64,000 nt of DNA from Agelas oroides. Taxonomy: Eukaryota > Porifera > Demospongiae > Agelasida > Agelasidae. Shown here in pieces: positions 27,634-59,537 of the stretch; positions within the stretch are counted from its first letter, which is position 1, and each line of letters begins with the position of its first letter. The stretch covers positions 7,220,636-7,284,635 of the forward strand of contig OX422183.1 in NCBI GenBank assembly GCA_949130485.1. The letters run 5' to 3'. The translations under genes were made by a program, and so were the position numbers. Below the pieces are notes generated by a model. That model was given only the letters and a program-made list of their open reading frames with translations. It made no database searches and was not told where the DNA came from.

Positions 27634-38153
<10,520 letters not shown>

Positions 38154-38232
38154 GATCGTAAATCTCAAAATTACTTACAAATTCGTTTTATTAGAAGGTA
38201 CCGCTAGCTCGCGGCGGGTGAGCGGTGCGGTT
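38154..38232. promoter_or_regulatory. Divergent promoter between TBRG1-like and selenoprotein genes
   Basis: The two start codons face away from each other across 79 bp. The selenoprotein side is GC-rich (CTCGCGGCGGGTGAGCGG). No TATA box is apparent. A shared bidirectional promoter is inferred from the spacing. The transcription starts are not visible, and the promoter may extend into the coding regions. Confidence 0.55.
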
Positions 38233-39177
38233 ATGGCCGCAATCTATACCACCAAGGATGGCAAAACTGTACGGCTGCTGCCTGCGTTGCGAAAACTGAA
38301 CCTGGAGCTAACCAAGAAAGTTAGCGACGGACGGAAAAGCTTTGAGGCGATGAAATTTGACCGCTTAGATGAGTTTTTGAACAGTGACTGTAAAATGGGT
38401 TTGAGTGTATTGTTTCCAATGTCCAGCTACATCCGATGCATGAACACCGTTGGTGTAAAGACACGGGCAGAACTCGAGGAGATGTGGAAGGGTTGCTACC
38501 ATGATGACTGAGTTAGGGAGTGTGTAGACGAACTTTTGGGCTTAGAGGAAAGTATTCAAGAATTGTATGATGATATTGATGTGGAGCTACAGAAAGCAGA
38601 GGATCGACTTGCCATCCAGAATGTCACTAAGGTGGGTGACCAGCTTCCAGCCAGTCTGTCCCTCACCAATTGCCGCTCAGGGGAGGTGATCAACATTGAG
38701 AGCATCTGGAAGCAGTCCAAGTTCACACTCTTCATTCCTCTCAAGTTTTACTCTTGAGGTAAATGAAACATACATCTGGAGGGCATAGCGGCTAGGGTAG
38801 GTGAATTTAACCAGCTGGGGTGTCAGGTGGTTGTCGTTTCCTGTGGAACACAAGAGAGTGGTGTCACATGGTTGCAGAAACATGGCTGCACTTTTCCACT
38901 TTTCATTGATCGAGATAGAGTGTTCTACAAACAAGTTGGTCTGCGAAGATTCCTCAAAAACTCATGCTGCATCAAAATCTTTAAATATTATGCAGATGAG
39001 CACTTTGCTGGTACTGGGAGACTTGAGCCTTCCTATCCAGGGAGTGACATTGCAGTAATGGGAGGTGATTTCATTGTTGATTCAACTGGGAAGCTGCTGT
39101 ATGCTCACCTCTGCAAGAACCAGTTTGACAGACCTGACATTGAGACATTGGTTGAATTTATGAAAGGCACCATTTAA
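38233..39177 (+). CDS. SelL: SelL-type selenoprotein with UGKU redox motif, three in-frame UGA codons
   Basis: One uninterrupted frame of 315 codons runs from ATG 38233 to TAA 39175-39177. It is broken only by three TGA codons (38509-38511, 38755-38757, 38764-38766) and no TAA or TAG. Translating TGA as Sec gives 314 residues, with U175-G-K-U178 directly after the strand KFTLFIPLKFYS. This is exactly where thioredoxin/peroxiredoxin-like folds carry CxxC. Downstream residues (LGCQVVVVSCGTQ, FPLFIDRDRVFYKQVGL) fit the AhpC/TSA-2 (PRXL2) fold. SelL is a known family from aquatic animals and marine bacteria with UxxU forming a diselenide, so a redox role is inferred. A SECIS follows 40 bases after the stop and AATAAA lies at 39318. 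The first UGA (codon 93) is not explained by SelL and may be a third Sec. The gene is intronless; a decayed gene is the alternative, but it would not be expected to keep only TGA stops plus a SECIS. Confidence 0.87.
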
Positions 39178-39204
39178 TCCATTAGTGCTTCAGGTTTTCA
39201 TTCT

Positions 39205-39276
39205 AAGAGGCACGTTATGAAGCTTGCACCCTCAATCTGGAGACCAGAGGGGTGTGTGCTGAAGTGATATTGTGCT
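39205..39276 (+). promoter_or_regulatory. SECIS element, type II
   Basis: The core motifs are ATGA at 39217-39220, AA at 39234-39235 and TGA at 39260-39262. The 13 bases AGCTTGCACCCTC between ATGA and AA pair with GAGGGGTGTGTGCT (one mismatch, one bulge). Beyond the AA, TCTGG and CCAGA close a mini-helix over an AGA loop, which is the form II geometry. CAC/GTG or GCAC/GTGC can close the lower helix. Its place in the 3' UTR, 450 bases after the last UGA, fits Sec insertion by SBP2 and eEFSec. Confidence 0.87.
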
Positions 39277-39317: not shown

Positions 39318-39323
39318 AATAAA
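39318..39323 (+). terminator. Poly(A) signal AATAAA of the selenoprotein gene
   Basis: AATAAA lies about 140 bases after the stop codon and just after the SECIS, the expected order for a selenoprotein 3' UTR. The cleavage site cannot be seen. Confidence 0.55.
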
Positions 39324-39544: not shown

Positions 39545-41370
39545 TCAGGTTTCCAGCTTCAATACAGCTATAGCGGAAGTTGGGCATTCATTCTGGAAGC
39601 AAACATGTCAATTGAGAAAGGACTCTGCTTGCTCTCCAACTGCAGGAGGGCATTGAGAGCAAGTGGAGGACTTCGGTTGTTGGTAAAACAGCACCTGAAA
39701 GTATTTCCACTAAGGTCTCAGACAGAGGGAGTGGTAGCTATGGGTTGAAATTAGACTTGAGAAGGGAAAAAAGCTGGCTAGCTGTCCGGGTATTGTACAT
39801 AAATCCAGAGGGTGTAAAGGTGGAGAAGAAACAATTTGAGGGTATGCAAGACGAAAAAGTGAGGTTACAGCAGAAGGGATTTAGTGTAGTATTGATGGGA
39901 GACTTTAATGCCACATTGGACTAGGAGAAGAGCAATCACCAAATAGGAATGGGGAAAGGCTGGTGAATTTGGTCTGGGCATGTGATCTGAGGGTTAAGAC
40001 CTTAAGGCAATGAGCTCCCCGAATGTACATGAAGATGGACTTGGGAATGTGGAGAGAAGAGGTCTGCGGTAGATTACATCCTAGTATCAAGAGAGGTGAA
40101 TGTGCACAGGATGGTAATAGAGGATGAGGGAGCAGTGGAGTTGGGATCAGACCACAACCTGATTTGGTCAGTCAAAAGCAGAGAAAGTGATACAAGAAGA
40201 GAGGTATAAGTGGAAGGTGGATGGTAAACAAGATTGGGAGGAGTACCAACACGCTGTGCAAGAGGAGTTTTTGGACTGGGAAGAGAAACTGGAGGAGCTG
40301 GCTGAGAGCAGGGAAAAAGAGAGATGGGTTGAAGGTGTTTGGGAGCTCTGGAAAGCAAAAATATTAATAAAGGCAGCCAAGAGGGGAATACGAAATAAGA
40401 AAGTAAATGAACACTCAAAAGGGTGGTGGTCGACTGAGGTAGAGTTACCAATCCAAGCAAGAAACTGAGAGGCATGTAGAAAACTGAGGGAAGCAAGTAG
40501 GACAGTGAAACAAGATGAGACCTTGAGAGAGAAGTGGAACATGAAAAGGCGGTTGGTGAAGAAGCTGATCAGAAAGGAGAAGGAAATGAGGAAGAAGACA
40601 CTGAGAAAGACAAAAGAGTCAGGGCGTGCCAAGCTGTAAGCTTTTTTGGTCAGACTTGAAGGGGGGACATCGAACCAAGAAGAGAAGCATCCCAAGACTG
40701 AAGTGTAAGAGTGGAAAGACCATATAGATGAGCCTATGGAGGTGCTAGAGGAATTGGCTAACCACTGGGAAGATTTGGGGAAGCAGACAGATGGTGGTAG
40801 AATGATTGCAGAAACAGAGGATTGGAGAGAAGACAATGGACTTGACATGTGTGAAAAAGTAATGTGGCAGCATGTCTTAGGTGTTGTGAGGTGCCTGCAA
40901 AGAAGCAAAGCTCCAGGTCCAGATGGCATCCTAAACGAAATGATGGTGTATGGAGAGGGATGAACCCAGCTGATGAACGATAACAGAAGAGTATGTGCCC
41001 TCAGAGTGGAGAAAGAGCTATGTTGTCCCATTGTATAAACGTGCAGACCCCGAAATTGCTAGCAATTATAGGGGAATTGCTCTGGGTAGCTGTGTGGATG
41101 AAGTTTTCACAAGGGTGCTAACAAGGCAGCTGGGTGAGTATGTGGAGGAAAGAATAAGTACTATAACAGAGGCACAAGGTGCATTTTGAGCGAATAGAAA
41201 CTGTTCAGACCAGATGAGGGGATGCTTGCCTCCACATCTTGATACAGGCATTGGTAGACTCTGATGAACTTCTCCTCCACGCTATACATCCTCATCTTCT
41301 CCCAAAGGCCCTCCCTCCATATAGTCTTGTATGTCTTACTCACATCAAGAAAGGCAAGGTAGCTATGTTC
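39545..41370 (+). mobile_element. Decayed non-LTR retrotransposon (LINE) with inverted RT fragment
   Basis: Across several frames on plus I can read a LINE ORF2. The endonuclease part includes VLMGDFNATL at about 39890-39920 and GSDHNLIWSV near 40145-40175. The reverse-transcriptase fingers region includes KAPGPDGILNEMM near 40908-40945 and VVPLYKRADPEIASNYRGIA near 41020-41080. Many stop codons and frameshifts break it. The RT palm start (LDVSKTYKTIWREGLWEKM) is present on the minus strand at about 41218-41360, so the 3' part is inverted. That arrangement is typical of twin-primed insertion. The element is non-functional. Confidence 0.8.
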
Positions 41371-47119: not shown

Positions 47120-47155
47120 CCCGCGTCCTCTGAGCGGTGATACAAGCCGATAACG

Positions 47156-50100
47156 ATGGCGACAGGAAACTTCGCACTCCCGCCCCCAGTACCGCTCGAT
47201 ATCCACAGCGACCAGGCCGGGGAGAAGTGGAAACGCTTCAAACGGGCCTGGGATAGCTACGCCCTCGCTACAGGACTGAACGAAAAGGACGAAGGCGTAC
47301 AAGTCGCGACATTGTTGACGGTGATCGGAGAAGAGGCGCGGGAGGTGTATTCTACCTTTACGGGTTGGGCGGCACCTGGCGACGACAAGAAAATAGATCC
47401 CATGTTAGAGAAGTTCGGACAGTACTGTGAGCCTCAAAAGAACATTCCGTTTGAGCGATACAGATTCAACCGTCGCTGCCAGGAGGCAGGAGAGAACTAC
47501 GACCAGTACCGCACAGCTCTCAGGAAACTCGCCGGAAACTGCGATTTTGGAACGATTACACCGGACGAAATCCTGCGTGACCGCCTCGTGTTCGGTATTC
47601 GCGACGGTAAGACCAGAGAGCGTTTGTTGAGAGAACCGGCGCTGACGCTGAAGCGAACAGACGAGATATGCCGTTCTGCGGAAAGTGCAGTCACGCAACT
47701 AAGGCTCGTGGATGATGGTCAAGGAACAGCTGTTAACGCCTTGAACACACCCCCTAAGTTGGCGCAGGGCTGCCCCAACTGCGGCAGACAGCACGACACC
47801 CAGCGGCGAGAGCTGTGTCCGGCCTTTGGCAAGATATGCCGGAAGTGCAAGAAACGAAACCACTTTGCAGCGAAGTGTCGGAGCAGGAACCAGAGAGCCC
47901 TCGCCCTGGACGAGACCGAGACACGGGATCCACCTGACGATGACGAGACATTGACACTCTCACTACCAGTCCATTGCCTGGATGACTCGCAATTCATTAC
48001 ACTCCGTGTCAGGTCAGGCAGCTACATCAGATTCCAGGTGGATACAGGGGCGCAATGTAATGTCCTACCAGTAGACACATACAAGAAGGCCACGGGCGAC
48101 AAGACCCTCCGCAACGTCACTCACACCAATACTCGAGTCACAGCCTATGGTGGAACCACACTGCCGGTTGTTGGACGTGTAATATTGGTGGTTTGGAGGG
48201 AAGCATCAGAGTACCGTCTGGACTGTTGGCTCGTAGACTCTCAAAAGATCCGTCCACTGCTCGGGCGCAAGGCATGCCTGGGCATGAAAGTCATCAAATA
48301 CCTTGACAACGATGCCATCCACAAGCCAAAGACTGGTAACGCCCCTGTCCATACTCTCGAACCAGCTGGACCTGTATTCATTGAACAGTTGCAAAGAGAG
48401 CATCCTGAAGTCTTTGGGGCAGGAGTGGGTCGACTGGAAGGAAAGTACAGGATCGTACTAGATAACAGCATTCAACCAGTGCAGCACCCTCCACGCCGAG
48501 TTCCAGTCCCCTTGCGTGATGCTCTAAAGGGTACACTAGACGACCTTGTGCAGCAGGATATTATAGCACCTGTCCAGCAGCCCACACCATGGGTCAGCTC
48601 CATGGTGGTCGTGCCGAAGAAGGATGGCAAGCTGCGTATATGCCTCGACCCACGTGACTTAAACAAGGCCATCCGCCGGGAACACTACCCACTCCCCACC
48701 ATAGAGGACATTGCGACACGCCTCCACAGTGCCAAAGTCTTCACGGTCCTCGACGTCCGCAAGGGTTTCTGGCACGTAGAGTTGGAAGAGGACTCCTCCT
48801 TCCTGACCACTTTCAACACCCCTTTTGGGCGGTACAGGTGGAAGAGAATGCCCTTCGGCATCTGCTCTGCGCCTGAAGTGTTCCAGCGGAGGATCCACCA
48901 ACTCATCGAAGGTTTACAGGGAGTGGAGGTTGTGGTGGATGACTTTGTTGTGGTTGGGTTTGAGGACACGCTGGAAGATGCTGTAAGAGACCATGACCAT
49001 AACCTGGAGGCGTTCCTTCAGAGATGTGCGGCCAGAGGTATCAGACTGAACAGCAACAAAGTGCAGCTGAGAAGGCAGGAGGTGCCATTCATTGGGCATG
49101 TAGCAACGGACAAAGGCCTCCGGGCAGACCCCACCAAAGTGGATGCAATCACACGAATGCCACCGCCCACAGATGTCGCTGGGGTCCAACGACTCCTGGG
49201 AATGGCCCAGTACTTAGCAAAGTTTCTTCCCCACCTCGCAGATGTAACAAAACCACTGAGAGAGCTCACTCACAAGGACGTCGAATGGGTCTGGGACAAA
49301 CCACAAGAGGATGCGTTTCAGAAGCTACAGAAAGCCATCACGAACATCCCTGTCCTGAGGTATTACAACCTCGAGGAAGAAGCCACAATACAATGCGATG
49401 CATCACGATCGGGACTAGGGGCCGCTTTGATGCAGAACGGACAACCTGTGGCTTATGCGTCCAGGGCCATGACGGAGGCAGAAACCTGGTATGCCCAGAT
49501 AGAAAAAGAACTCCTTGCTATTGTGTTTGCATGTAACAGATTTGATATTTACATTTATGGCAGGGACAGGGTGAGAGTGGAGTCGGACCACCAGCCATTA
49601 GAAGCAATCATGAAGAAGCCGCTCAATGATGCCCCAAAACGTCTCCAACGTATGCTCCTGCAACTGCAAAAATACTCACTCGACGTCACCTACAAGAAGG
49701 GTAAGCTCATGTATCTGGCTGACACTCTAAGCCGTGCATACTTACTTGACGAGGTCACTGTAGCGGAAGTAAAGGAGCTGGAATCGATCGACCACACTGA
49801 GTCATTGGCTGTGGCCCCAGAAGACCTAGAGCGCCTCAAGCTGGCGGCATCACAAGATGTGGCAATGCAGGAACTACGGCGCATCGTTCAAGAAGGCTGG
49901 CCAACACACAAAGCCGAAGTGCCAGATGCTGTTCGTCCGTACTTCGAGTTCCGAGACCAGATGACCACACAAGGTGGGCTAGTGTTCAAGGGCCAAGTCG
50001 TGGTAATTCCAGCAGCACTGAGAGCGGAGATGATGGCCAAGTGCCATGCCACGCACATTGGGATCGAAGGATGTGTCAGGTGTGCTCGTGAGTCAATGTA

Positions 50101-51145
50101 TTGGCCACGCATGTCATCCGATCTCAAAGATTACATATCCAGATGTGATGTGTGCCTAGCTTACCAAAGTGCACCACATAAGGAAACCCTCATGCAGCAT
50201 GAAATCATGGCCCGACCATGGGCAAAAGTGTGTGCTGATCTATGCGACTTTAGGGGACGGATGCTCTTGGTTGTCTGCGACTATTTCAGTGGCTTCATTG
50301 AGGTGGAGCGTTTGCACACAACAACCGCTACAGCAGTTAGCAGGGCTCTGAAGGCCCTTTTTGCCAGATATGGTGTCCCCGACGTGCTAGTGACCGACAA
50401 TGGGCCACAATTTGCCTCAGCTGAGTTTGTGTCTTTTGCCAAGAGATGGGGTTTCCAGCACGTTACATCATCTCCTCACTACCCACAATCTAATGGTAGG
50501 GCGGAAAATGCAGTAAAAACAGTCAAACGACTACTCACTAAATGCCAGGAGACAAGACAGTCGGAGTTCCAGGCTCTACTAGACTGGAACAACACACCGA
50601 CGGAGGGGGTGGGGTCAAGTCCGGCACAACGGTTCCTCGGCAGGAGATGTCGAACACTACTCCCCATGACAGAATCGATGTTGAAGCCAGCATACGATAC
50701 CACAACAGATGCCCAGGCATTGAAGGGCAAACGAGCCAAACAACCCTACTACTACGATCGCCAAGCTCGTGATCTTCCTCCCATAGCAGTGGGAGAGACT
50801 GTGAGACTGCGACTACCTGGGAAAAAGCAGTGGACGTCAGGGATATGTACTGGCACAGAGGGCCCACGAAGTTACACAGTTCAAGCGGGATGTACCGTGT
50901 ATCGGCGGAACAGACGACACCTAATCAAGGGTGGAGAACAAACACACCAGGAAGAACCCTCAGAGCCGAGTCAGCTAGATGATCCTGATTTGCCGCCATC
51001 ACCACCTGCACCCAACCCGGCACCACCAAACTTGCCGGAACCACAGCCACCATCGGCCCCCACACAGGACGAAACTCTGCAACTACGTCGATCAACGAGG
51101 CAGAGAACGACACCCGACTGGATTACAACATATGTGCCATCGTAA
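47156..51145 (+). CDS. Gag-Pol polyprotein of a Ty3/gypsy retrotransposon
   Basis: A single 1329-codon frame starts at the first ATG after the primer-binding site. In order: Gag (about 1-200); zinc-binding region (CPNCGRQHD, then CX2CX4HX4C in CRKCKKRNHFAAKC, about 205-240); aspartic protease (VDTGAQCNVLP, about 293); reverse transcriptase (LDVRKGFWHVELEE about 531, MPFGICSAPEVFQ, and the catalytic DD in VVVDDFVVV about 593); RNase H (CDASRSGLGAAL about 745, EKELLAIVFA, SDHQPLEAI); integrase zinc domain (H…H…CARES…CDVC) and core (D in ADLCDF, TDNGPQF, then E in SNGRAENAVK with 35 residues between D and E). A proline-rich tail and a basic LRRSTRQR segment end it. Gag and Pol are fused without a frameshift. 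The protein makes and integrates the element's cDNA copy. Confidence 0.97.
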   Translation: MATGNFALPPPVPLDIHSDQAGEKWKRFKRAWDSYALATGLNEKDEGVQVATLLTVIGEEAREVYSTFTGWAAPGDDKKIDPMLEKFGQYCEPQKNIPFERYRFNRRCQEAGENYDQYRTALRKLAGNCDFGTITPDEILRDRLVFGIRDGKTRERLLREPALTLKRTDEICRSAESAVTQLRLVDDGQGTAVNALNTPPKLAQGCPNCGRQHDTQRRELCPAFGKICRKCKKRNHFAAKCRSRNQRALALDETETRDPPDDDETLTLSLPVHCLDDSQFITLRVRSGSYIRFQVDTGAQCNVLPVDTYKKATGDKTLRNVTHTNTRVTAYGGTTLPVVGRVILVVWREASEYRLDCWLVDSQKIRPLLGRKACLGMKVIKYLDNDAIHKPKTGNAPVHTLEPAGPVFIEQLQREHPEVFGAGVGRLEGKYRIVLDNSIQPVQHPPRRVPVPLRDALKGTLDDLVQQDIIAPVQQPTPWVSSMVVVPKKDGKLRICLDPRDLNKAIRREHYPLPTIEDIATRLHSAKVFTVLDVRKGFWHVELEEDSSFLTTFNTPFGRYRWKRMPFGICSAPEVFQRRIHQLIEGLQGVEVVVDDFVVVGFEDTLEDAVRDHDHNLEAFLQRCAARGIRLNSNKVQLRRQEVPFIGHVATDKGLRADPTKVDAITRMPPPTDVAGVQRLLGMAQYLAKFLPHLADVTKPLRELTHKDVEWVWDKPQEDAFQKLQKAITNIPVLRYYNLEEEATIQCDASRSGLGAALMQNGQPVAYASRAMTEAETWYAQIEKELLAIVFACNRFDIYIYGRDRVRVESDHQPLEAIMKKPLNDAPKRLQRMLLQLQKYSLDVTYKKGKLMYLADTLSRAYLLDEVTVAEVKELESIDHTESLAVAPEDLERLKLAASQDVAMQELRRIVQEGWPTHKAEVPDAVRPYFEFRDQMTTQGGLVFKGQVVVIPAALRAEMMAKCHATHIGIEGCVRCARESMYWPRMSSDLKDYISRCDVCLAYQSAPHKETLMQHEIMARPWAKVCADLCDFRGRMLLVVCDYFSGFIEVERLHTTTATAVSRALKALFARYGVPDVLVTDNGPQFASAEFVSFAKRWGFQHVTSSPHYPQSNGRAENAVKTVKRLLTKCQETRQSEFQALLDWNNTPTEGVGSSPAQRFLGRRCRTLLPMTESMLKPAYDTTTDAQALKGKRAKQPYYYDRQARDLPPIAVGETVRLRLPGKKQWTSGICTGTEGPRSYTVQAGCTVYRRNRRHLIKGGEQTHQEEPSEPSQLDDPDLPPSPPAPNPAPPNLPEPQPPSAPTQDETLQLRRSTRQRTTPDWITTYVPS

Positions 51146-53856: not shown

Positions 53857-56800
53857 CTATTTCAGAAACCCAAGCCGTTTCATCATAGCTATAGCAGTAT
53901 ATATGTAAGGTATTACACTGTGCTTCTTTAAATATTGAGCAACGTCAGGGTGATTCCTTGCCAGTTGGAGTGGGGTTATGTTCATCGGTCCTGGAATGTC
54001 TGGAGGAAACTTCAGCTCCTCAACTAGAAACTTAACTACCTCCAAGTGACCACTTGTCACTGCATAGTGCAAAGCAGTATTGTTAAAAGTGTCATAATGA
54101 ATTGCAGTGTACTTGTGTTCATCCAAACAAGATGGATTACAGCCTTGCTCATCAGTCAAATACTTGACTATGTGCAGATGTCCAAACTCAGCAGCTGTGT
54201 GAAGAAGGGTTCTACCATACAGACCTCCTAGGTCTGGGTCACAGTTCTGATCAGAGATGAAGAATCGAACTATGTCCAAGTGTCCATTCATTACTGCTAG
54301 ATGTAAAGCAGTGTCATTGTTAACACTTCTACACATTGGGTCGCAGTGCTTTTCCACAATAAGAAACTTCACGATGTCAATGTGCCCCTTCATGGCAGCA
54401 CGGTGAAGTGGGGTGTACTTGTGTTCATCCAAACATGATGGATTACAGCCTTGCTCATCAGTCAAATACTTTGCTATGTGCAGATGTCCAAACTCAGCAG
54501 CATAGTAAAGAAGGGTTCTACCATGCTGACCTACAAGGTTCGGATCACAGTTCTGATCAGAGATGAAGAATCGAACTATGTCCAAGTGTCCATTCACTAC
54601 TGCTAGATGTAAAGCAGTGTCATTGTTAACATTTCTACTTGTTGGATCACAGTGCATCTCAAGAGTGAGGAACTTCACTATGTCTTTATGACCATTTTGT
54701 GCTGCTATGTGAAGGGGAGTGATCTGTTGAAAGTTTCTACACATTGGGTCACAGTGCTTTTCCACAGTAAGAAACTTCACAATGTTGATGTGCCCCATCA
54801 GAGCAGCACAGTGAAGTGGAGTCAGCTTGTCTTCATCCAAACAAGATGGATTACAGCCTTGCTCATCAGTCAAATACTTTGCTATGTGCAGATGTCCAAA
54901 CTCAGCAGCATAGTGAAGAAGGGTTCTACCATACAGACCTCCTAGGTCTGGGTCACAGTTCTGATCAGAGATGAAGAATCGAACTATGTCCAAGTGTCCC
55001 TCCACTACTGCTCGATGTAAAGCAGTGTTATTGTCAACATTTCTACTTGTTGGATCACAATGCATCTCAAGAGTGAGGAACTTCACTATGTCTTTATGAC
55101 CATTTTCTGCTGCCATGTGAAGGGGAATATTCTGTTCATAATCTCTACACATTGGGTCGCAGTGCTTTTCCACAATAAGAAACTTCACAATGTTGATGTG
55201 CCCCTTCAGGGCAGCACAATGAAGTGGAGTGTACTTGTCTTCATCTAGACATGATGGATTACAGCCTTGCTCATCAGTCAAATACTTTGCTATGTGCAGA
55301 TGTCCAAACTCAGCAGCATAGTGAAGAAGGGTTCTACCACACTGACTTCCTGGAAGGTCTGGGTCACAGCTGTGATCAGAGATGAAGAATCGAACTATGT
55401 CCAAGTGTCCATTCACTACTGCTCGATGTAAAGTAGTGTTATTGTCAACATCTCTACTTGTTGGATCACAGTGCATCTCAAGAGTGAGGAACTTCACTAT
55501 GCTTTTATGACCATTTTGTGCTGCCATGTGAAGGGGAGTATTCTGTTCATAATCTCTACACATTGGGTCGCAGTGCTTTTCCACAATAAGAAACTTCACA
55601 ATGTTGATGTGCCCCTCCATGGCAGCACAGTGAAGTGGAGTGTACTTGCGTTCATCCAAACAAGATGGATTACAGCCTTGCTCATCAGTCAAATACTTTG
55701 CTATGTGCAGATGTCCAAACCCAGCAGCATAGTGAAGAAGGGTTCTACCATACAGACCTCCTAGGTCTGGGTCACAGTTCTGATCAGAGATGAAGAATCG
55801 AACTATGTCCAAGTGTCCATTCACTACTGCTAGATGTAAAGCAGTGTCATTGTTAACATTTCTACTTGTTGGATCACAGTGCATCTCAACAGTGAGGAAC
55901 TTCACTATATCTTTTTGACAATTTTCTGCTGCTATGTGAAGAGGAGTGGTCTGTTGAAAGTTTCTACACATTGGGTCGCAGTGCATCTCAACAGTGAGGA
56001 ACTTCACTATATCTTTTTGACCATTTTCTGCTGCTATGTGAAGAGGAGTGATCTGTTGAAAGTTTCTACACATTGGGTCGCAGTGCTTTTCCACAATAAG
56101 AAACTTCACAATGTTGATGTGCCCCTTCATGGCAGCACAGTGGAGTGGAGTCAGCTTGTCTTCATCCAAACAAGATGGATTACAGCCTTGCTCATCAGTC
56201 AAATACTTTGCTATGTGCAGATGTCCAAACTCAGCAGCATAGTGAAGAAGGGTTCTACCATACTGACCTCCAGAAAGGGATGGGTCACAGTTCTGTTCAG
56301 CGATAAAAAAATTGAGTATGCCCAAGTGACCATTTGCTGCTATAATGTGAAGAGGTGTGCTGTTCCATTTGTTCTTGAGTTGACTCACAAGTTCTGTAAT
56401 GGGGTTATATATTTCAAGCTCTGAAGTAAGAAACTCAACAACTGCTCGATAACCACCTGCACAAGCTCTATGCAGTGGAGTGCTTCCAAACTCATCTTCT
56501 AAAAGTGGATCCATCTGTTGTTCAATAACCAGATACTTAACCACAGCAACATGACCTTGGTCACTAGCTAAATGAAGTGGTGTTAAGCCAAATGGGCCTA
56601 GACATGCTGGGTTGCAGTTTCTCTCAGTGATGAAATACTTGAATACCTGTATATTTCCTACAATTGCTGCCACATGAAAGGGAGCAATGCCACCCTGATT
56701 TTTCTGCATTGGGTTGCAGTGGTTCATCTCAACAAGATACTTCACATGCTCCAACTGTCCCTTTGCTACTGCATAATGGAGCTCTAAACCACTACTAGAC

Positions 56801-59537
56801 TTGTAGGAGGATACTGTTTCTACAAGACCCTGCACTTTCAGTTCATAGTCCAATTCCTTGTCCAGTCGGTCCTAGCGCAGAAAAAAGGAAAGTAAGCGAT
56901 ATGCAAGAAGTGAATTCTTTGTATACAACTATATCACTGTGCCTATCTTTGGATGATTAACAGTTTAACACATTTACTTGACCAGGAAATTAGTAGCTTA
57001 CCTCAGAAAATGTGGTGCTCTTTGTGTCTGTAAGTGTGCTTATTCCAGAATCATCATCGGGATCACGCTGGTATTTCTTCTCTATGAAAACAAAAGAGAA
57101 AGGGCACAAAGCTAGAGACTATTCTTGCAATGTGATAGCAACTAGAATGCACCTACCAATTCCTGATGGTGCATCTCTCTGTAAGAAAAGAAGTGAACAT
57201 GACTTGAATATCTGTAGCACCTACATAGGATATGGCAACAGCTTTCTTGCCTATTTCTACAACCTACAGTAAGCAATGCAGTGACTGTAGTACTTTCATA
57301 GATAACTGTTGTATCATCTATTTAACTTATGAAAGGTATATTAATGCAGTGACAGTTAAATTTTATAACCTTACCAGGAACTGGTACTCCCCACACGTGA
57401 GCCTGATAACACCCATGGCTGCCAGAGACCCCTCTTGCTCTCCAGACAGTGGAAATACCTCCTGTTGTACAAATGTGGGTACCTGGAACATCAGCTGCAA
57501 ACAACCTTTATCTACCCGACAGAGATGCAGAGTACCTTGGGATGAAACACGTAGGATTTCACTGAGTTTATGACGGAATTTCTCAATTTGTGCAACAGTG
57601 CAGTTCTTGTACTGCGAGTCCACCTTCACAAAGACATCAGCATGGTTAGCATCACTTACTGGTCCAAACTCTGGCAGGCATTCAAAGATTCTTCGCTTTG
57701 CATACTGATTAAAATCTTTCTTGTACCTCTGTAGCTTAGCTTTATCATTTCTAGTACCAAGTGCTTTGATGATGTGTTCAATGAGCTGGTAGTTGAAGAA
57801 AGAAAAGTAGTCATTAAGAACCAGGAATATTTCATAAATTGTGTTTGCAGTTTTCAATTCTTTGAAGCGATGGCAAAACACTGGCACTTGTGGCTCCTTG
57901 AAGACAGGGCCAAATGCTCCCAGAGTCATGATATGACATAACAGCTTCTTTGGTGATACATTTTGTCGAATGAGGGACTCAATTGTTGCTGATACAAGTT
58001 CCTGAAATTGTATCATTATCTCTTCAGATTCAAGCTGAAGCTTTCCCTGTAATTCCTGCAGCTGCTGATGATCGAGGCCACTGAGGTTAAGGTAGGGAAA
58101 GGAACTTACTGAAGAGATGGGTGTTGAACAGCGCCTCTCTAAAAAGCTAAGGAATGTGCACTTGCCACATCCACACCCAAATGGTGGCTGCTGAGACCCC
58201 TCACTTGGAGGGGTGCTGGTATTGTCATATTGTACTGCACTACCAGTAGGGCTTTCTAAAGCATGAGATTGCCTCTTGTGATCTTGAAGTCTGATTTCAA
58301 TAGAGCTGGCAGTAGTTTCACCATAAATTTCTGCAGAAGGTATACATTTACACAAAAGGAAAAGCATTATAAAAACTACAGCCTCATTTCCAGGCCTCCT
58401 CCTTCTTATTGTTTTTGATACAAGCTATACAGAATTCGCTTCCCCCATTTTTACTCCTCAGTTTTCATTCACAGTATATATGATACACAGATGTGGAATT
58501 CAAACACAAACTGAAGAGCCAAAAAGAGGGGAGGCCTGGAAACGTGGCTAAAGAAACCATGTAACAAGTACTTTCAGAAATTTATTCAGATGTTCTCTAA
58601 ACTTAATTGTTAATCCTAGGCTCTTGTCTGGGAATCTTCCTGCAAGTTGACAGCATAGGGAACTAAAGTAACACCTAAATCATGGAATGAAAGGGTACCT
58701 TCGCTCTTCTCTGCCTTGGTAGGACTGGATGTATCCATTATATCCTGCATTGGTGCACAATACTTTGACTCCAACTGTGCAGCAACATTCATCTCATTTA
58801 CTATCAGTGACCTCAAGACAGAGACAACTGCTTCCCAGGTAGGAGGTGGGTCAACAGTTGTTCTTAACCAATGTATCAACACTTCACGCAATGAATCTGA
58901 GGGATCTGAGTACATTTTCCTGAAGCAGTTCAGTTCAGTGTATGGGATACCCAATTCCAGTCCAATGTTGTACCAGTTGACACGAACTGAGTGAAGTTCA
59001 ATCAGCAATGCTTTCAGAGTTAGTTCTGTGCATGTAAAGAGAAACATCTTTTTTCTGTCTCTTTGTACATTGATTCAGACAACTCCATCTACCACGTTAC
59101 AATCGCAATTTCCCCCCTCCCCCAAACACATTACCTTCAGGCCCTGGGTTTGTTTCCACATCTCCTGCTATCACTAGCAGTAGAGGTATCACCACCACAA
59201 TGGCTCTGAGCAGCAGAGGTCCCCCACCATCCAAAATCCCCTTCACTCGAGAAGTGGACCCTCGCCAGTGGCAGCGCACCTTGCCACCCCCACTCCTCCC
59301 CCTCAGCTTGGACCAGGAGTGGACTACATACTGCAGTATCAGTGACAGAGCAACAACTGTCATGCAGCCCTTGAGCACCAGGGGTGTGTCATTCATGACC
59401 TCCCCCACCCCCCAGCTGGCCACCCCAGGCTGGTACAGCCGACCACCACTGCTTCTCCACCTGGTCTGGAGGGGGCGACACATGTGGTAGTAGTTGAGCC
59501 CGATTCGAGCCCGCCATGTGGCAACATCAATCCCCAT
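53857..59537 (-). CDS. 2A-leader / death-domain / ankyrin-repeat protein, 6 exons
   Basis: Joined exons (minus): 59537-59135, 59025-58699, 58330-57375, 57178-57157 (22-bp microexon), 57081-57002, 56871-53857. All are GT-AG with matching phases, giving 1600 residues. Residues 1-134 have two hydrophobic stretches (about 58-72 and 107-124) and end in GDVETNPGP (D126-P133), the 2A ribosome-skipping signature, with release predicted between G132 and P133. Residues about 136-220 resemble a death domain (LTLKALLIELHSVRVNWYNI, WEAVVSVLRS). Residues 244-561 are a helical region with a GCGCGKC cluster that I do not recognise as a named domain (it recalls repeated families in sponge genomes). Residues from about 620 are roughly 27 ankyrin repeats. 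An acceptor (TTTTACAG) before the ATG suggests a 5' UTR intron. A role in immune-type signalling is inferred from the architecture. Confidence 0.85.
53930..56790 (-). repeat. Higher-order ankyrin array, four-repeat super-unit of about 408 bp
   Basis: Within the last exon, a block of four ankyrin repeats (YGRTLLHYAAEFGHLHIAKY; YTPLHCAAMKGHINIVKFL; TPLHIAAENGHKDIVKFL; TALHLAVVNGHLDIVRFF) recurs about five times with high identity. For example, the CTTGCTCATCAGTCAAATAC motif falls near 54450, 54860, 55265, 55675 and 56185. One block has an extra repeat. The spacing shows recent tandem duplication of multi-repeat units, while the terminal repeats are more diverged. Confidence 0.88.
58380..58550. 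mobile_element. MITE, CCTCRTTCCCAGGC family, in an intron
   Basis: AGCCTCATTTCCAGGCCTCC at the left is matched by GGAGGCCTGGAAACGTGGCT at the right. It lies wholly within intron 2 of the 2A/death/ankyrin gene and leaves the splice sites intact. Confidence 0.75.
59139..59162 (-). other. 2A-like ribosome-skipping motif (DVETNPGP)
   Basis: The eight codons for D-V-E-T-N-P-G-P match the D(V/I)ExNPGP consensus exactly. They are preceded by the hydrophobic stretch RAIVVVIPLLLVIAG, which may also act as a signal segment. The exon ends one codon later, so the released downstream protein would start P-E-E just before the death domain. Confidence 0.85.

Follow-up and report, generated by a model that had tools for sequence, protein, structure and literature searches.

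A SelL-type selenoprotein gene with a third in-frame TGA, predicted in a sponge genome that carries a multi-copy SelL family

In the available excerpts of the literature, SelL (SELENOL) is described as a selenoprotein with a diselenide bond that occurs in aquatic organisms including marine bacteria (PMC2397514), with one SECIS element inserting both selenocysteines (Sec) and with a distribution among vertebrates that is limited to fishes (PMC3316567). The excerpts also place SelL in Ciona (PMC2874816), and in a table from 2012 it has one entry in each of Amphimedon, Trichoplax, Nematostella, Capitella and Branchiostoma (table 1 of PMC3473315). An initial sequence-only reading of the locus described here expected it to add an early-branching animal to the family, which must be given up, since Amphimedon, Trichoplax and Nematostella already stand in that table. 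As far as the consulted part of a further source goes, fewer than 1% of SELENOE, SELENOL and SELENOJ genes have a good annotation in Ensembl (PMC12822975). The SelL genes reported below would probably be cut at their TGAs by automatic annotation.

The window, that is, the whole stretch of 64 kb that was analysed, contains at 38233-39177 (+) one open frame of 314 codons that closes with a TAA at 39175-39177. Its only internal stops are TGA codons, namely codon 93 (38509-38511, +), codon 175 (38755-38757, +) and codon 178 (38764-38766, +), and the 314 codons contain neither TAA nor TAG nor a frameshift, as the sequence-only reading had stated in describing a single frame interrupted by TGA only. 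No intron is seen in the coding sequence, which is colinear with five intronless relatives on contig C3 and a further one on contig C7. Codons 175 and 178 form the motif U175-G-K-U178, which lies within a Pfam AhpC-TSA match (residues 134-239, E 7e-11); this match and one to AhpC-TSA_2 (residues 187-293, E 5.5e-15) both fall in the C-terminal part of the protein. The NCBIfam model NF040769, "SelL-related redox", matches residues 159-308 (E 3.8e-23). With 82 bits the match falls short of the model's cut-off of 120 bits, which was not treated as defining SelL because the model is a prokaryotic one named "SelL-related". At the limits used, all three models match each of the seven aligned family members. 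Nine plasmid records show weak similarity to the protein (at most 26.2% identity), and in the three that were aligned both cysteines of CPYC/CPFC fall on U175 and U178. Two scans each of prokaryote and viral contigs gave no confirmed relative, and none was found in phages. The Pfam and NCBIfam matches and the CPYC/CPFC alignment bear out the proposal of a SelL-type selenoprotein with UxxU at the redox position. Two TGAs arranged as UxxU, a peroxiredoxin-like domain of predicted thioredoxin fold around them and a single eukaryotic SECIS in the 3' UTR are the features of SELENOL that the gene displays, and the name SelL, better read as SelL-type, rests on motif, domain matches and SECIS.

The SECIS element occupies 39209-39276 (+) in the 3' UTR, starting 31 bases past the TAA, and is followed by an AATAAA poly(A) signal at 39318-39323 (+). 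It consists of an AUGA core, an apical AA, a CUGG/CCAG mini-stem and a UGA, and the mini-stem above the apical AA gives it a type II-like layout; the type II element claimed at first sight thus stands as type II-like. Run against 4 kb of sequence, the Rfam model SECIS_1 aligns to it over its full length with 26.6 bits (E 0.039), under the gathering score of 35, and an Rfam scan of the whole 64 kb did not list it. Its fold over 76 nt is more stable than expected (z -3.75; none of 200 shuffles equally stable), and a pattern-and-energy scan of our own over both strands of the window placed it first at -18.2 kcal/mol, the runner-up reaching -8.3; in ten 64-kb shuffles, scanned on one strand each, none of 112 candidates lay at or below -14 kcal/mol. 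A covariance model built from seven relatives, with the window copy left out, found the element at 83 bits (E 8e-22) and the next match in the window at 17.7 bits. The same model gives 80.7 bits to a dead-looking SECIS-like relic at C3:4811501-4811581 (-), which has no SelL coding match beside it and served as dead-copy control, so the score of 83 bits shows descent and not function. The two elements are set apart by the apical AA, which the window element retains and which has become GA in the relic. In an alignment of nine rows, relic included, the drawn structure has 93.6% of its cells paired, compared with at most 56.3% when it is slid along the alignment. Two-sided changes occur in four of the 19 pairs, each in a single sequence. 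Extra pair types are no more numerous than under shuffling, where 436 of 500 runs equal or surpass the observed number, and the covariation score stands out only modestly (equalled or surpassed in 29 of 500).

The gene does not stand alone. When the whole genome (259 Mb, 141 contigs) was searched at the protein level, 12 matches at E 0.001 or better were obtained that resolve into nine genes, all of the SelL family. Eight are without visible damage: the window copy (W, UGKU), the five intronless copies A (UGPU), B (UGPC, opposite strand), C (UGPC), E (UPPC) and F (UGEC) on C3, one gene on C7 (USPU, 46% identical) and one on C9 (USPC). The coding regions of the undamaged copies on C1, C3 and C7 lack introns; the C9 gene is split by an apparent intron and is partly reconstructed, its N-terminal exons not having been found. 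The ninth gene, D (C3:4836048-4837802), is broken by a frameshift and an insert of about 0.8 kb that is rich in GGGGACCCC-type repeats; it still has TGA at both motif positions (UPPU) and a SECIS, and with it the C3 cluster spans approximately 41 kb. A DNA search of the genome found no second copy of the window gene near 100% identity. The window gene belongs to a local SelL expansion and is a dispersed member of the intronless family, which probably arose when an intron-bearing SelL was retroposed and which then multiplied on C3.

The position of codon 175 is TGA throughout the eight undamaged genes, while the position of codon 178 is Sec in W, A and C7 and Cys in B, C, E, F and C9. Each of the eight also has a SECIS-like element 28 to 86 bases past the stop (for A measured from a TAG three codons beyond its likely TGA stop), as found with a family scan that was laxer than that of the window and run without shuffle control; judged by energy, F (-10.4) and C7 (-12.5) have weaker elements. 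Because the covariance model was built on the A to F and C7 elements, their own scores follow by construction. The C9 element lies outside the model and was found by it at 25.7 bits (E 0.0003), with 31.9 bits in Rfam. In an Rfam scan of eight loci the C9 element was listed but none of those on C3 or C7, and an Rfam SECIS search over the whole genome gave no signal anywhere, controls included.

The window copy has been under purifying selection for most of its history, like its paralogues. Its pairwise dN/dS against the five C3 copies is 0.25-0.36, and the changes specific to it comprise 30 nonsynonymous ones at 468 sites and 19 synonymous ones at 76 sites, a ratio of 0.26 (95% range approximately 0.14-0.46, calculated by hand from the counts) that compares with 0.10-0.31 in the five C3 copies. 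It deviates at 15 of the 150 columns at which the other five agree, the lowest and highest values being those of F (4 of 139) and B (21 of 156). On the terminal branches of a codon model the window copy has 0.35, with 0.39 for A, 0.48 for B and 0.34 for C, values to be read with the window copy's position in the tree being uncertain, as codon and nucleotide trees disagree. A neutral simulation limited to substitutions gave a chance of remaining free of TAA and TAG of 0.24, 0.07 and 0.001 at 0.05, 0.1 and 0.3 substitutions per site, respectively. Together with the ratio of 0.26 this rules out that the copy has been a pseudogene for most of its life, and a long relaxation of constraint is unlikely.

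Codon 93 behaves differently from the other two TGAs. A, B, C, E and F have Glu at this position (GAG or GAA), whereas C7 has Gln (CAG) and, by alignment of its exon to C7, so does C9. With Glu in five and Gln in two of the seven remaining undamaged genes, UGA93 is a derived state of the window copy and does not belong to the conserved Sec set. The sequence-only reading had named random stops at the TGA positions of relatives as grounds for its rejection; codon 93 comes close to this, the difference being that the change is to TGA and not to TAA or TAG. Several bases differ at once (GAC TGA GTT in W, GAA GAG GTG in A, E and F), for which a single complex event, or a small insertion offset by a deletion, would be as likely as several substitutions.

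The concerted difference of several bases would also fit an assembly error or a rare allele, most genomes then having Glu at this position, although one complex mutation would fit it too. There is a single assembly to go by, and the DNA search mentioned above offers no near-identical second copy for comparison. Since the change leaves the overall length as it was and preserves the frame to either side, and since the long contigs suggest long, accurate reads, this explanation appears improbable. Still less can be made of a small in-frame intron, for example at 38453-38545, that would remove UGA93 by splicing: a GT can be paired with an AG to enclose 93 bases, but the six other undamaged intronless copies encode conserved protein straight through this region and C9 encodes conserved residues from position 93 on, and this continuity rules the intron out.

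A genuine UGA could be a working third Sec. The copy would then make a stable SelL with three Sec, in which Sec93 would lie between Cys88 and Cys97 and could form a selenenylsulfide with one or the other. These neighbours are well kept (Cys88 in all seven aligned copies, Cys97 in five of the seven), the sole new stop of the frame is a UGA (of the weighted single-step nonsense mutations open to copy A by chance, 47 of 168 would produce UGA), the selection ratio is that of a constrained gene and the SECIS core is intact. With Glu or Gln there in all seven remaining genes, however, the site has no Cys or Sec ancestry, and a non-Cys site is unusual for Sec; moreover, each additional UGA should reduce selenoprotein yield. 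The reading is thus a serious one that falls somewhat short of an even chance. The same standing is due to the proposal that UGA93 is a nonsense mutation marking a recent loss of function, with a 92-residue fragment and at most a trace of read-through as products. The family evidently undergoes birth and death, as the broken copy D and the SECIS relic without gene and without apical AA testify, and the window copy is located apart from the C3 cluster. Against this proposal, the window copy carries no further damage, and the low simulated chance of a frame free of TAA and TAG means that any loss of function must be recent. A working three-Sec protein and a recently disabled copy are accordingly given equal weight.

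Some Sec insertion at codon 93 would be expected, since UGA93 lies upstream of an intact SECIS, at a distance of about 700 bases, and a eukaryotic SECIS acts on upstream in-frame UGAs at sufficient distance. As no intron was found in the coding region, a stop at codon 93 may also escape junction-dependent decay. In the boldest reading, which is less likely than not, a SECIS-bearing intronless gene can absorb a UGA nonsense mutation as a new Sec, Glu93 having become UGA and SelL having gained a third Sec in its N-terminal region. If true, this would be a natural case in which a gene's own recoding signal allowed Sec to arise at a position that was not Cys.

The sponge origin of the DNA, already assumed in the sequence-only reading, is borne out by silicatein-like exons. 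Papain-family matches number 66 in the genome, and in five short stretches that were examined the motif CGSCWAF is replaced by CGASYAF or CGASYVF in three and by CGSCYAF in one, the fifth having ordinary CGSCWAF. Clusters of cathepsin L/silicatein-like exons were seen at C4:288000-303000 and C11:396000-436000, with CGASYAF/CGASYVF in three of the four pieces read there and CGSCWAF in the fourth. The best solved relative of one CGASYAF piece is silicatein alpha (PDB 6zq3, E 8e-12), ahead of the best native cathepsin L (2.6e-10). Judged by these exons, the host is a siliceous sponge.

Among the components of Sec decoding, tRNA-Sec gave five matches in the genome, two of them above the cut-off with 78 bits each and counted as its tRNA-Sec genes; control genomes gave weak matches in 14 of 14 and matches above the cut-off in five. 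The selD family matched contig C16 with 34.3 and 30.3 bits, against a cut-off of 125, and one of the matches holds a TAG; as 13 of 14 control genomes also give signal, this is no proof of a selenophosphate synthetase. The weak selD-family matches, which may belong to a related enzyme, lie at C16:757000-766500 together with a SECIS-like site (-16.1 kcal/mol), and no clear Sec exon was recognised in the region. A SelU-like exon reading RRFG-TGA-QLC, with SECIS-like sites in our laxer scan, was observed at C8:1064000-1070000 (-). No sponge-specific Sec AhpC was recognised among 12 genomic AhpC-TSA matches, four loci of which were translated, a partial search.

Upstream of the SelL gene lies a divergent gene with a HARE-HTH domain (37482-38156, -; Pfam 1.6e-13), and the 79 bp from ATG to ATG (38154-38232) are probably a promoter shared by both. 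Elsewhere in the window, inspection by eye revealed frame pieces resembling a non-LTR reverse transcriptase just 3' of SelL (39740-41200, +), a stop-to-stop frame of 1334 codons like a Gypsy-type retrotransposon polyprotein (47141-51145, +), a frame of 1004 codons with ankyrin-like repeats (53857-56871, -) and a death domain-like sequence (58616-59074, -).

Taken together, the window gene is with a probability of roughly 85% a genuine SelL (SELENOL-type) gene of a siliceous sponge whose UGA175 and UGA178 are decoded as Sec through one SECIS. The predicted protein would have an N-terminal region of about 120 residues followed by the thioredoxin/peroxiredoxin-like domain, and the sponge's Sec machinery would insert both residues by means of the single 3' UTR element. 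By analogy with the SelL literature and the CxxC homologues, Sec175 would attack the oxidised substrate, Sec178 would resolve the intermediate as a diselenide, and a thioredoxin-type system would reduce it. UGA93, as a copy-specific change at a Glu position, should be read as Sec at least part-time, so that a three-Sec protein would be made at some level, perhaps a reduced one.

Compared with SelL/SELENOL of fish, ascidian and other aquatic animals, and with the sponge protein Aq.SelL of Amphimedon as far as the consulted part of its description goes (PMC3473315), the gene shares two Sec arranged as UxxU, the Prx-like domain and a single SECIS. It differs in its third in-frame TGA and in belonging to a local multi-copy intronless family whose second Sec is often Cys. 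A search of the open-access literature found no report of a multi-copy sponge SelL family or of a three-Sec SelL; within its reach, the expansion and the Glu-to-UGA change are new, while sponge SelL itself was reported in 2012. A diselenide-type selenoprotein gene has multiplied in one sponge, with the second position switching between Sec and Cys among close paralogues, and this series provides a natural set for asking what role the second selenium plays. UGA93 in turn poses the testable question of whether a SECIS can soften a UGA nonsense mutation so that it is tolerated as a missense change to Sec. The homologous model NF040769, with its 173 positions, lacks the N-terminal region. With PRXL2/SelU-like proteins the gene has the AhpC-TSA_2 domain in common, a match that does not separate SelL from SelU; SelU has one Sec, whereas the window protein has the SelL-type UxxU. 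With Selenoprotein P it shares several UGAs in one frame that are read, or predicted to be read, as Sec, the difference being that Selenoprotein P, in the accessible part of its description, has a varying and larger number of Sec and two SECIS elements (PMC3316567), whereas the window gene has one SECIS.
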